NCBI RefSeq assembly: GCF_014926385.1
Contig: NZ_CP053291.1
Coordinates: 930,001 to 994,000, forward strand
Direction: 5' to 3'
DNA from: Trueperella pecoris
GTDB taxonomy: Bacteria; Actinomycetota; Actinomycetes; Actinomycetales; Actinomycetaceae
DNA: 64,000 nt
Positions within the stretch are counted from its first letter, which is position 1, and every line of letters starts with the position of its first letter. This document shows positions 59,299-64,000 of the stretch, piece after piece. A program made the translations under genes and the position numbers. The notes beneath the pieces are model-generated. The model saw only the letters and a program-made list of their open reading frames with translations, had not been told where the DNA came from and made no database searches.

Positions 59299-60156
59299 GT
59301 GACTCCTGTACAGACTGATCTTCTCAACGAACTGGATCCGGACCGCGATTTCCCATTGCCTCCGGATCTTGATTCCCACGGCCCGGCGCGCATCATCGCG
59401 ATGTGTAATCAGAAGGGCGGCGTGGGCAAAACGACGACGTCGATCAACCTCGCCGCGGCGCTTGCTGAATACGGTCGGAAGGTGTTGATTGTGGACTTCG
59501 ATCCGCAGGGCGCGGCGTCGGCGGGCGTGGGCATCAACGCGATGATGCTCGAGCGTACCCTCTACGACGAGATGCTCTCGGCCAAGCCTGACATCACGCG
59601 TATCATCCATCACACGTCCACCGAGAACCTGGATATTGTGCCAGCCAATATCGAGCTGTCCGCCGCCGAAATCCAGCTCATCAATGAGGTGGCCCGCGAG
59701 CAATCGCTCATGAGGGTCTTGCGGCCCGTGGTTGGCAAGTACGACGTCATCATCGTCGACTGCCAGCCTTCGCTCGGCCTCCTCACGATCAATGCGCTGA
59801 CCGCGGCACACGGAGTCATGATCCCGCTCGAGGCGGAGTTCTTCGCCATGCGCGGCGTGGCGCTCCTCATCGACCAGATCGAGCGCGTCCAGGATCGGCT
59901 CAACCCGCAGCTGACCGTTGACGGCGTGTTGTTGACGATGGTCGACACCCGCACGCTGCACGCGCGCGAGGTCATCTCGACGATTCGCCAGCAGTTTGCT
60001 GACAAAGTATTCGACACCCAGATTCCGCGCACCGTGCGCTTCCCCGACGCGACGATCGCCGCCGAACCGATCACCGCCTACGACCCGAAATCCAAGGGAG
60101 CGGAGGCGTACCGCCGCCTGGCGCGCGAGCTCATTTCCCGCGGCGGCGCGCCGTAG
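59299..60156 (+). CDS. ParA-family ATPase
   Basis: This 285-aa deviant Walker ATPase has the motif CNQKGGVGKTTTSINLA after a 35-residue N-terminal extension. VDFDPQGAAS, VIIVDCQPSLGLLTINAL and the C-terminal VRFPDATIAAEPI follow. It has no adjacent parB, so it is the scpAB-linked paralogue rather than the oriC ParA. The GTG is probably leaderless. It overlaps scpA by one base (TAGTG). Confidence 0.93.
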   Translation: MTPVQTDLLNELDPDRDFPLPPDLDSHGPARIIAMCNQKGGVGKTTTSINLAAALAEYGRKVLIVDFDPQGAASAGVGINAMMLERTLYDEMLSAKPDITRIIHHTSTENLDIVPANIELSAAEIQLINEVAREQSLMRVLRPVVGKYDVIIVDCQPSLGLLTINALTAAHGVMIPLEAEFFAMRGVALLIDQIERVQDRLNPQLTVDGVLLTMVDTRTLHAREVISTIRQQFADKVFDTQIPRTVRFPDATIAAEPITAYDPKSKGAEAYRRLARELISRGGAP

Positions 60157-61004
60157 TGAGTCAGGGCGAGGACCTCTTTAGCTCCGACGGATTCGCGGTT
60201 GATCTCGACGTGTTCTCGGGGCCGTTTGAGGTCCTCCTTTCCCTAATTTCCCGCAAAAAGCTTGATATTACCGAGGTGTCGCTCGCCGAGGTAACCGACG
60301 AATTCGTGGCCTTCGTCCGAGCCCAAGACGAGGCAGACCTATCACAAATGTCTGAGTTTGTCCTCGTGGCTGCGACCTTGCTCGATATGAAAGCCGCCAG
60401 GTTGCTACCGCACGACGATTCGGAGGACGAGGATCTCGAACTCTTGGGGGCCCGGGATTTACTGTTCGCCAAGCTCCTTCAATACAAAGCATTCAAGGAC
60501 GTGGCGGCCGACCTCGCCGCGACGCTTGGTGTGCAGTCCTTGTCCCATCCGCGTGACGTGCCGATGGAGGATCGTTTCCGGCGGTTGTTGCCCGAGGTCG
60601 ACCTTCGGATCAACCTCGACGATCTGGCGCGCATGGCTGCCCGCGCGTTCACCCGCACACCCCATGAGGTGACACTTGATCACCTTCATGATCCCCTCAT
60701 TCCCGTGGAGAGCCAGGTAGCTTACCTTCGCGAGCGGCTCATCGTCGGCGATAGGGTGTCGTTTCGGGAGCTGTGCCGGGAGGCACACTCAGTCTCGCTG
60801 CTCGTCTCCCGATTTCTCGCGGTGCTCGAGATGCTGAGAAACCGAGAGGTCGACGTCGCTCAAGAGGGGCCGCTCGCCGCGCTGTACGTCACCCGATTGA
60901 CGAAGGAGATTCCCTCCCGCGACGTCGACGAATCCGAGTGGGGGAGCGCAGAACCCAATCCTGGTACAGAACAGCACGTGGAAAGTGAGCAACGCAATGA
61001 GTGA
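60156..61004 (+). CDS. scpA: Segregation and condensation protein A
   Basis: This 282-aa kleisin subunit of the SMC condensin complex has the N-terminal VDLDVFSGPFEVLLSLISRKKLDITEVSLAEVTDEF, which contacts the SMC neck. The middle is acidic (DDSEDEDLELLGARDLL), and the C-terminal winged helix is VSLLVSRFLAVLEMLRNREVDVAQE. The GTG start overlaps parA. The 3' end overlaps scpB. Confidence 0.95.
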   Translation: MSQGEDLFSSDGFAVDLDVFSGPFEVLLSLISRKKLDITEVSLAEVTDEFVAFVRAQDEADLSQMSEFVLVAATLLDMKAARLLPHDDSEDEDLELLGARDLLFAKLLQYKAFKDVAADLAATLGVQSLSHPRDVPMEDRFRRLLPEVDLRINLDDLARMAARAFTRTPHEVTLDHLHDPLIPVESQVAYLRERLIVGDRVSFRELCREAHSVSLLVSRFLAVLEMLRNREVDVAQEGPLAALYVTRLTKEIPSRDVDESEWGSAEPNPGTEQHVESEQRNE

Positions 61005-61551
61005 GGAATTCCAGAGAGGAGCACTTGAGGCAATCCTCATGGTCGCACCTGATCCGGTGCCGCTTGGCAGGCTCGCCCAAACAATCGAGCTGGAGGAGGC
61101 TGAAACGTTGAGGCTTCTGCGCAAACTCGCCGCTGAATATGCCGGTGACCAGCGCGGATTCCTTCTCAGGGAGGTCGGAGGCGGGTGGCGTCTGTACTCC
61201 CATCCGCGCTACAGCGAGGTCGTAGGCGAGTTCATCACGGCCGGCCAATCAACACGCCTTTCGGTCCAAGCGCTCGAAACGCTCGCGGTGATCGCCTACC
61301 GTCAGCCGACCACCCGCGCTCAAATCGCGTCAATTCGCGGTGTTGAGGTAGACTCTGTTGTTCGAACTTTGGTGACGAGAGGTCTCGTCGAGCAGGTCGG
61401 TACGACGGCCGCAACCGGGGCGTCCCTCTATGGCACTACGCCACTCTTTCTTGAGAAGATGGGAATGAATTCCCTGGATGACCTTGCCCCCTTGGCACCC
61501 TACCTACCAGATGACGCCGATCTTGACGACGTCGAAAAGGAGCTACGATGA
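60997..61551 (+). CDS. scpB: Segregation and condensation protein B
   Basis: This 184-aa dimeric winged-helix partner of ScpA has RGALEAILMVAPDPVPLGRLAQ, GFLLREVGGGWRLYSHP, LSVQALETLAVIAYRQPTTRAQIASIRGVEVDSVVRTL and YGTTPLFLEKMGM. I prefer ATG 60997, inside the end of scpA; GTG 60985 would add four residues. It overlaps rluB by 4 nt. Confidence 0.95.
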   Translation: MSEEFQRGALEAILMVAPDPVPLGRLAQTIELEEAETLRLLRKLAAEYAGDQRGFLLREVGGGWRLYSHPRYSEVVGEFITAGQSTRLSVQALETLAVIAYRQPTTRAQIASIRGVEVDSVVRTLVTRGLVEQVGTTAATGASLYGTTPLFLEKMGMNSLDDLAPLAPYLPDDADLDDVEKELR

Positions 61552-62303
61552 GCCGCCGCGTACAGGACCTGCATGATGCCAACGGCGAGCGTCTGCAAAA
61601 GGTGCTCGCTCACGCGGGCGTCGGCTCGAGGCGAGCATGCGAGGCGCTCATTGAAGAAGGACGCGTGTGTGTGGACGGCGTCGTTGTTCGTCAGCTCGGA
61701 ATTCGAGTCAACCCGGAAACCGCGGTCATTCACGTTGATGGCAACCGGGTCCAGCTCGACGAAACGAAGGTCACCCTCGTGTGCTACAAGGAGCGCGGCG
61801 TCGTCTCCACCATGAGCGACGACCAGGGCCGCGCGACCCTCGCCGACTATGTGGCTGAGCGAACGGAGCGCCTCTACCACGTCGGCCGGCTCGACGCGGA
61901 GACCGAGGGCATCATCCTTTTGACCAACGATGGCGAACTCGCCCACCGTCTTACCCACCCCTCCTACGAAGTGCCCAAGACGTACATCGCTCGGGTGGAG
62001 GGTACGGTAACCCGTGGGCTGACGAAGGTGCTCGAAAAGGGCATCACGCTCGACGACGGCCCGGTCAAGGTCGATCGGTTCGTCATTCGTGAGGCGGGCA
62101 AGAGGCACTCCATCGTCGAGGTCACCCTGCACTCCGGGCGTAACCGGATCGTTCGTCGAATGATGGAGGAGGTCGGCTTCCCCGTGATCGATCTCGTCCG
62201 TACGCAGTTTGCCAACATCGCCATCGGGCGGCTCAAGCCCGGTCAGGTGCGCACGGTCGCAGGCTCCGAGCTGGGTGCGCTCATGAGCATGGTGGATCTG
62301 TGA
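61548..62303 (+). CDS. rluB: 23S rRNA pseudouridine synthase (RluB family)
   Basis: This 251-aa enzyme has an N-terminal S4 RNA-binding domain (RLQKVLAHAGVGSRRACEALIEEGRVCVDG) and a catalytic domain with YHVGRLDAETEGIILLTNDG, whose Asp is catalytic. TLHSGRNRIVRRMMEEVGFPV is the late motif. It overlaps scpB (ATGA) and the tyrA-cmk gene (GTGA). Confidence 0.95.
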   Translation: MSRRVQDLHDANGERLQKVLAHAGVGSRRACEALIEEGRVCVDGVVVRQLGIRVNPETAVIHVDGNRVQLDETKVTLVCYKERGVVSTMSDDQGRATLADYVAERTERLYHVGRLDAETEGIILLTNDGELAHRLTHPSYEVPKTYIARVEGTVTRGLTKVLEKGITLDDGPVKVDRFVIREAGKRHSIVEVTLHSGRNRIVRRMMEEVGFPVIDLVRTQFANIAIGRLKPGQVRTVAGSELGALMSMVDL

Positions 62304-64000
62304 AAGACACCGTGCTGACCCAATCTCCGGTGCTGATCATCGGCACCGGCCTTTTGGGGACCTCGATCGCCTTGCGGCTTCGCCGTGCGGGGGTCAGCGT
62401 GCACCTCGAGGATGCCTCTCCGGTGGCGGCCGCCTTAGCTCGGGACCTCGGCGCGGGCTCGTTGGATCCCGTGGCGGATCCCAAACTCGTCATCGTGGCG
62501 ATCCCGCCTGACGTGACGGCGCCGGCCGTGCGATCCGCCTTGGAGCGTTTCCCCAACGCCGTCGTCTCCGATGTTGCCTCCGTTAAGGACCAGATTCGCC
62601 TCGAGCTTGAGGGTCATCCCGGCTTCGAGCGCTGGGTCGGTTCCCATCCGATGGCGGGCAAGGAACGGTCCGGTGCTATTGCGGCGGACGCGGATCTGTT
62701 CGTTGGCCGTCCGTGGGTGATCGCGGCCAATGAGCGCACCTCGGCTGCGGCGATCGGCACCGTCCGCACGCTCGCCGTCGACATGGGCGGGGCCGTGGTG
62801 ATGCTCGATTCCGCCGAGCACGATCACGCGGTTGCTCTCGTGTCCCATATGCCCCAAGTCATGAGTTCGCTCGTCGCCAGCGCGCTTCGCGATGCTCCCG
62901 CACAAGCGCTCGATCTGGCCGGCCAGGGCCTGCGCGACGTGACGCGTATTGCCGAGTCGGACCCGCTTCTGTGGACGTCGATCATTAGCGGCAACCGCCA
63001 GCAGATCGCGGGCGTCCTGCGGGGCATTTCTGCCCGCTTGGGAGCACTCGTGTCGGCGCTCGATCGTCAAGGTGGCGGACTCGACCGCATCTCGTCCGTG
63101 ATTGCCGATGGCAACAGGGGAGTGGCACGTATTCCCGGCAAACATGGCGGGGCTCGCGCCTCGTATGCGGAAGTGATCGTTTTGATCCCGGACGAGCCCG
63201 GCATGCTGGGTAAGCTTTTCGCCGAGATCGGCGACATCGGTGTAAATATTGAAGACCTCGAGATGGAACATTCTGCCAAGCAGCAGGTGGGCAGGGTTAT
63301 CTTGAAGGTCAATCCGCAACAGGGCCTGCCGTTGGAGCGCGGGCTCGAAGAGAGGGGATGGAGAGTCGTGAGGACTGAGAATCGCCAGCCGCTAGTGATT
63401 GCTATTGATGGCCCGTCGGGTTCCGGCAAGTCGACGGTCGCTCGACGCGTGGCGGACGAGCTCGGCCTGTCTTACCTCGATACGGGCGCGATGTATCGCG
63501 CGGCCACCTGGTGGGCTCTGCACGAGGGCATCGATCTTGACGATGAAGAGAGCGTCCTGCGCGCCACCCAGAACATGCCGCTGTCGATCGATCTGGATCC
63601 GCGCGACCAGCGCTTCGTCTGCGCCGACAGCGATATCACGGGCGCCATCCGTACGTCGGACCTGGCCAAGGTCGTGTCGAAGGTTGCGGTTAACCTTGCC
63701 GTGCGCGCCGAGCTGGTGGGCATGCAGCAGGCGATTATCGCCGAGGAGACGACGCCGTCGGGCCACTCGCAAGGCCGCGGGATCGTCGTGGAGGGGCGTG
63801 ACATCACCACCGTTGTGGCCCCCGATGCTCCCGTTCGCGTCCTACTGACCGCCTCGGAGGAGGCGCGCCTGGCTCGCCGGGCGAAGGAAAACCTCGGAAA
63901 TGCGGACCGCCAGGCGATCGAGGCCACGCGTGACGAGGTTCTTCGCCGTGACCGCGACGATTCGACCGTGTCGAACTTTACGGTCGCCGAGGACGGCGTG
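62300..64000 (+). CDS. Prephenate dehydrogenase-cytidylate kinase fusion (partial at window edge)
   Basis: One frame starts at GTG 62300 and remains open to the end, at least 567 residues. Residues 1-355 are TyrA: the NAD loop IIGTGLLGTSIA at 13-24, GSHPMAGKERSG with H116, SHMPQVMSSLVA, then a C-terminal ACT domain from about 290 (VIVLIPDEPGMLGKLFAEIG). With almost no linker, residues 363 onward are cytidylate kinase (VIAIDGPSGSGKSTVA with Lys377, YLDTGAMYRA, GIVVEGRDITTVVAPDA, LRRDRDDS). The products would make 4-hydroxyphenylpyruvate and phosphorylate CMP. An internal GTG at 63368 (codon 357) could also start Cmk alone. The end lies outside the window; in relatives Cmk may be joined to the GTPase Der. 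Confidence 0.9.
   Translation, partial: MKDTVLTQSPVLIIGTGLLGTSIALRLRRAGVSVHLEDASPVAAALARDLGAGSLDPVADPKLVIVAIPPDVTAPAVRSALERFPNAVVSDVASVKDQIRLELEGHPGFERWVGSHPMAGKERSGAIAADADLFVGRPWVIAANERTSAAAIGTVRTLAVDMGGAVVMLDSAEHDHAVALVSHMPQVMSSLVASALRDAPAQALDLAGQGLRDVTRIAESDPLLWTSIISGNRQQIAGVLRGISARLGALVSALDRQGGGLDRISSVIADGNRGVARIPGKHGGARASYAEVIVLIPDEPGMLGKLFAEIGDIGVNIEDLEMEHSAKQQVGRVILKVNPQQGLPLERGLEERGWRVVRTENRQPLVIAIDGPSGSGKSTVARRVADELGLSYLDTGAMYRAATWWALHEGIDLDDEESVLRATQNMPLSIDLDPRDQRFVCADSDITGAIRTSDLAKVVSKVAVNLAVRAELVGMQQAIIAEETTPSGHSQGRGIVVEGRDITTVVAPDAPVRVLLTASEEARLARRAKENLGNADRQAIEATRDEVLRRDRDDSTVSNFTVAEDGV

Follow-up and report, generated by a model that had tools for sequence, protein, structure and literature searches.

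A single-frame fusion of prephenate dehydrogenase and cytidylate kinase in Trueperella pecoris and related Actinomycetaceae

Results

The fused frame and its neighbours

Prephenate dehydrogenase (TyrA) and cytidylate kinase (Cmk) are encoded in Trueperella pecoris by one open frame, and we consider it very probable that this locus yields a bifunctional TyrA(ACT)-Cmk protein which would have arisen from overlapping genes, would be accompanied in most species by some free Cmk and would owe its benefit to co-production. The window, that is, the whole stretch of 64,000 nucleotides that was analysed, covers positions 930001-994000 of a complete 2,282,684-bp genome. The tyrA-cmk frame opens with GTG 62300 (window numbering, as below), is uninterrupted to the end of the window and, when read beyond position 64000 as an earlier note on this DNA had advised, stays open to the stop codon of Cmk itself at 64082-64084 (genome 994082-994084), giving a product of 594 amino acids [Table 1]. 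The in-frame TyrA-ACT-Cmk arrangement described in that note is thereby borne out, with a linker of seven residues where about eight had been estimated and with both domains scoring above curated cut-offs. Its further suggestion of a three-enzyme product that would include Der does not hold, as cmk has its own stop and der begins in another frame at 64077, its first 8 nt being shared with the end of cmk. Upstream, the stop of rluB and the start of tyrA-cmk overlap by 4 nt as GTGA. We note that a longer chain of genes (parA-like, scpA, scpB, rluB, tyrA-cmk, der; window 59299-62303 onward) is joined by successive overlaps of 1, 20, 4, 4 and 8 nt, and that the tyrA/cmk junction is the sole one in this chain to have turned into a fusion.

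Table 1. Coordinates, in window numbering, of the features of the tyrA-cmk locus
Feature	Position	Strand	Basis
rluB-type 23S rRNA pseudouridine synthase gene	61548..62303	+	order rluB-tyrA-cmk-der kept in relatives
tyrA-cmk fusion ORF of 594 aa, extending beyond the window	62300..64000	+	open reading frame
PDH_N, prephenate dehydrogenase NAD-binding domain	62366..62800	+	Pfam; HPMAG aligns with the A. aeolicus TyrA histidine region
PDH_C, prephenate dehydrogenase dimerisation domain	62810..63064	+	Pfam
ACT-type regulatory domain, residues about 288-356	63161..63367	+	sub-threshold Pfam match, NF005111 to residue 357, predicted fold, Foldseek
SD-like GAGAGGGGATGGAG and, after it, the in-frame GTG (63368-63370) as candidate start of free Cmk	63350..63370	+	duplex energy, synonymous shuffle
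Inter-domain linker RTENRQP, residues 358-364	63371..63391	+	domain borders, relatives, predicted structure
Cytidylate (CMP/dCMP) kinase domain up to its residue 203; a further 27 residues and the stop lie past the window	63392..64000	+	TIGR00017, Pfam, alignment
Cmk P-loop GPSGSGKST	63410..63436	+	sequence motif

Both halves have the hallmarks of complete enzymes

Judged by its profile matches and motifs, the predicted prephenate dehydrogenase half is complete. NCBIfam model NF005111 (TyrA with ACT domain, PRK06545) matches residues 4-357 with 459.5 bits against a cut-off of 344, and Pfam places PDH_N at residues 23-167, PDH_C at 171-255 and Cytidylate_kin at 367-588 of the fusion. Alignment with 3GGG and 2G5C finds GTGLLGTS, GSHPMAGKE and DVTRIAESDP all conserved, which we take to be the NAD-binding glycine motif, the SHPMAG histidine region and the TRIAxSDP motif, respectively. 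A C-terminal ACT domain is indicated by the coverage of NF005111 and by an ACT-like order of strands and helices in the predicted fold, the Pfam ACT match near residues 292-325 being below cut-off. The top Foldseek match of the model of the T. bernardiae orthologue is an ACT-containing TyrA, 5UYY, the B. anthracis enzyme in complex with tyrosine, which is also the closest full-length structural match.

The predicted CMP/dCMP kinase half is likewise complete, its motifs being conserved. TIGR00017 ((d)CMP kinase) matches residues 365-586 with 181.2 bits (cut-off 135.55); the P-loop, DTGAMYR, EGRDxxTVV and RRDxxDST motifs align with 3R8C, 1Q3T and 3R20; and the Cmk part of the orthologue model matches 4DIE with a TM-score of 0.88 by target length. 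In each of the 26 fused genomes described below, the Cmk part is about 220-232 residues long. The model of the T. bernardiae orthologue, with a mean pLDDT of 86.8, shows the TyrA part, the part with the ACT domain and a whole Cmk fold set apart by a short coil, and the pTM of 0.58 goes with no firm packing of the domains against each other. The linker varies by genus (RTENRQP, NMSRKDIMP, EGREKQMG), and its pN/pS among Trueperella species is 0.41 versus about 0.2 in Cmk, an indication of purifying selection on the linker that would also be expected if its codons were used solely by an internally started Cmk. A link of the fusion to defence systems was considered and rejected, a marginal P-loop match being all that pointed to it.

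Distribution of the fusion

Our survey of the family covered 213 genomes in 36 genera and found the uninterrupted fusion in 26 of them, representing 26 species and eight genus-level groups: all nine genomes of the Trueperella-group genus, one of group g7, four of g8 (the Arcanobacterium group), and the remainder in g6, g9, g13, g29 and g30. Named fused matches in g8 include Arcanobacterium bovis, A. ihumii and A. pluranimalium; the closest named relatives of the analysed genome belong to Trueperella, T. bernardiae matching at 85% in the junction region. The order rluB-tyrA-cmk-der persists in most of the unfused family members examined, tyrA and cmk being parted by a stop or a change of frame, in line with the earlier statement that the two are separate neighbours in most Actinobacteria, as indeed they are in most of those examined.

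No TyrA-Cmk fusion was found outside the family among the matches listed from 361 genomes of the order, where such a fusion, scoring with both halves, should stand near the head of the list. Across the phylum there was none among the matches listed from about 400 genomes (~396), a sample whose distant members may have a TyrA half too diverged for a match. Seven genomes of the phylum were inspected: G784, in which one stop lies at the tyrA/cmk junction, and six whose Cmk lies in a frame that is long or uncertain. The long Cmk frames in this sample were rejected as fusions and read as high-GC noise, a TyrA half not being recognisable in them by eye. In four loci of distant actinobacteria (L156, L157, L159 and L161), Cmk lies in a frame of 590-740 codons whose upstream part resembles an out-of-frame GC-rich neighbour; frame length by itself would falsely suggest Cmk fusions there.

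In every fused genome (26/26, that of T. pecoris included), neither TyrA nor Cmk has a match above the Pfam cut-off other than the fused gene, no second copy of either reaching it. Of the 25 fused genomes tested, none lacks the prephenate dehydratase gene (PDT/pheA) and only G197, a fragmented MAG, lacks chorismate synthase; with both kept, TyrA is not vestigial and is part of an intact pathway. One genome has, besides its intact pheA, a further prephenate dehydratase-like stretch that is broken by three internal stops (G093:C1:1711003-1711326).

TyrA is missing from 13 genomes of the family (most of g7, and G072, G077, G078, G125 and G136). The same 13 all lack pheA and retain a Cmk that is not fused to TyrA and usually lies directly behind rluB, from which it follows that Cmk does not need TyrA. 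Chorismate synthase is mostly kept in the genomes of these TyrA-less loci (L113-L121, L124, L125, L129 and L147). Nor is the fusion indispensable, since it was lost or never gained in G073, G074, G076, G182 and groups g2 and g4. Some g8 species (G073, G074, G076 and G077; loci L097, L122, L123 and L124) have a Cmk-Der fusion instead of TyrA-Cmk. Cmk thus seems to switch partners within one operon, and none of the genomes examined carries both fusions.

Origin of the junction

A fusion born of two overlapping genes, not of a shared pathway, is the most likely origin. In the unfused genomes G001 and G057, tyrA and cmk overlap as ATGA (GAGAAATGAGC), and junctions of the GTGA/ATGA type occur in many Cellulomonas. 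A 4-nt overlap of this kind is the commonest arrangement of translationally coupled gene pairs (PMC10666635). From such an overlap between coupled tyrA and cmk, a small indel with a net shift of +1 (mod 3) would produce the fusion. An example from the fused g6/g9/g13/g29/g30 group, GAAGGAAGAGAGAAGAAGATGGGC, has the old SD and ATG persisting within the tyrA frame.

The spacing from TyrA to Cmk is 18, 21, 24 or 27 nt in fused species, always a multiple of three, versus 30, 31 and 32 nt in the close trio G073, G074 and G076, in which TyrA has its own stop and Cmk is joined to Der; the frame therefore drifts once a stop exists. The 24-nt spacing, the main one in six of the eight fused genus groups, fits a common origin. 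A quick tree of RluB and Der gives support of 80 to a clade that holds all fused taxa, and parsimony on it requires a minimum of four changes of state, a count in which gains and losses are not separated.

A candidate internal start for free Cmk

The in-frame GTG at 63368, to which the earlier note had drawn attention together with a GGAG just upstream (63360-63363), is present, and its SD duplex is predicted to be at least as strong as those of the neighbouring starts (-11.1 kcal/mol, including a GTG penalty of 0.5, compared with -6.0 and -9.5 kcal/mol for the tyrA and der starts of the same operon). Synonymous shuffling gave p = 0.069 at this site and 0.007-0.41 in sister species, related species not being independent of one another, and p was mostly about 0.1 to 0.6 in the second group (g6/g9/g13/g29/g30). 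As a sign of selection for an internal start, these values are suggestive for Trueperella and fall short of significance in most species. GTG accounts for 44% of Val codons here and position 63368 falls within a conserved GWRVV strand, so its retention for the sake of initiation is no more than suggestive.

In 22 of the 25 fused loci examined, the position of the old Cmk start or its vicinity has an in-frame start codon and an SD-like site. Among the 12 cases of the g6/g9/g13/g29/g30 group, eight have ATG in the place of the old Met codon, three have GTG and one has a serine codon, a pattern that would be compatible with upkeep of the start. G198 and G181 lack a usable internal start, and that of G075 is weak. 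Each of the three has a single Cmk, and in G198 and G181, with neither an internal start nor another Cmk, Cmk must therefore be made, and must work, in fused form.

Relation to known fusions

Other fusions of Cmk and of TyrA are represented by curated models. The nearest in context is Cmk-Der (NF007071, PRK09518), in which Cmk is likewise joined to a neighbour from the rluB-tyrA-cmk-der operon in the same bacterial family; there, Cmk is N-terminal and followed by Der, whereas in T. pecoris it is C-terminal and preceded by TyrA. The fusion scores 215 bits with this model against a cut-off of 953 and has its own stop after Cmk. AroA-Cmk (NF008816, PRK11860) likewise places an enzyme of the aromatic pathway before Cmk in one frame and joins unrelated pathways, but its N-terminal partner is EPSP synthase instead of TyrA; the T. 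pecoris protein reaches 139 bits (cut-off 943), through its Cmk part only. In TyrA-AroA (NF011381, PRK14806), TyrA is also fused to a syntenic neighbour, the partner there being an aromatic-pathway gene, and the score is 112.8 bits (cut-off 902), from the TyrA part only. PanC-Cmk (NF010004, PRK13477) shares a C-terminal Cmk in a protein of two enzymes from unrelated pathways, with pantoate-beta-alanine ligase in the position that TyrA has here. No NCBIfam model for TyrA-Cmk was among the best 25 of 35 matches.

In the relevant passages of Song et al. 2005 (PMC1173090), TyrA is described as fused to aroQ, hisHb and aroF, partners from the aromatic pathway, and cmk > rpsA is placed near tyrA and aroF, with cmk treated there as a neighbour and not as a fusion partner. 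Searches of the open-access literature, outside which many journals lie, found no TyrA-Cmk fusion, no Trueperella TyrA and no T. pyogenes proteome naming cytidylate kinase, which agrees with the earlier remark that this fusion is not known to be an established one. TyrA-Cmk is apparently a new, undescribed partner pair among the fusions of TyrA and of Cmk.

Discussion

In the proposed scheme, ribosomes reading the whole frame would give every TyrA molecule a Cmk tail, and a TyrA dimer would carry one tethered kinase on each of its subunits. Translation of the full frame is indirectly favoured by the spacings in multiples of three, by the pN/pS of the linker and by the two species that have no usable internal start. 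In most species, T. pecoris included, some free Cmk would be added from the internal SD and GTG or ATG. Fused TyrA-Cmk together with some free Cmk is the likeliest output, given that, in most fused species, an SD and a start codon have been kept close to where Cmk used to begin. The genes of the rluB, tyrA, cmk, der operon would already have been coupled through overlaps when one stop was lost, and the result would have been kept as both enzymes tolerate fusion. Prephenate dehydrogenation and CMP phosphorylation have no common intermediate, which makes channelling unlikely, and the benefit most likely lies in co-production and a fixed dosage inherited from the operon.

That the open frame is itself an artefact, a sequencing error at 63340-63400 masking a stop or a frameshift as the earlier note had cautioned, has a negligible probability: nothing was found in its favour, the junction is free of stops in relatives of the same genus, and the frame is uninterrupted in 26 separately assembled species, the nine Trueperella-group genomes among them. 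A more serious competitor, which we regard as possible though doubtful, holds that the fusion is a nearly neutral by-product in which the full frame serves TyrA, the Cmk that matters is the free, internally started one, and the tether has no role. The in-frame starts and SD-like sites of the 22 fused loci, whose duplex energies resemble those of the other starts in the operon, would agree with it, as would the retention of ATG or GTG at the old Met position in all but one of the 12 cases and the persistence of free Cmk in lineages devoid of TyrA. It is harder to reconcile with G198, G181 and G075, whose only Cmk has no internal start or a weak one; moreover, conserved GW and EG(R/K)E residues force much of the SD-like signal, which shuffled sequences of the second group often reach.

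At the opposite extreme, the tether might be functional, with Cmk activity altered by the TyrA dimer or by tyrosine bound at the ACT domain, or the reverse, such that aromatic amino-acid status would be coupled to CMP/dCMP phosphorylation. Cmk begins only seven residues past the ACT domain, the closest full-length structural match is a tyrosine complex, and the frame has been maintained across wide divergence; yet many sister species have Cmk without TyrA and others TyrA without Cmk, and the predicted packing between domains (pTM 0.58) is not firm. We consider such a role unlikely, and there is an equally slim chance for its more specific form, in which the ACT domain would act as a tyrosine sensor tuning the fused Cmk and the internal start would supply an unregulated Cmk fraction. 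Slightly less probable still, and purely speculative, is that proteolysis in an exposed linker would separate the two enzymes in the cell after synthesis; the short coil predicted between the domains would suit this, but a conserved cleavage motif is absent and the linkers differ among genera. The reading that we favour thus remains a bifunctional protein derived from overlapping genes and supplemented in most species with free Cmk.

The fusion ties together two enzymes from separate reactions, and annotation that names one half may overlook the other in Trueperella and Arcanobacterium. Within a single operon, the family offers a natural series that runs from an ATGA overlap, through fusion with the old start and fusion without a start, to the switch of Cmk to Der and the loss of TyrA along with pheA. 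This series lets one test whether the fusion of enzymes is a by-product of translational coupling or brings a metabolic benefit.
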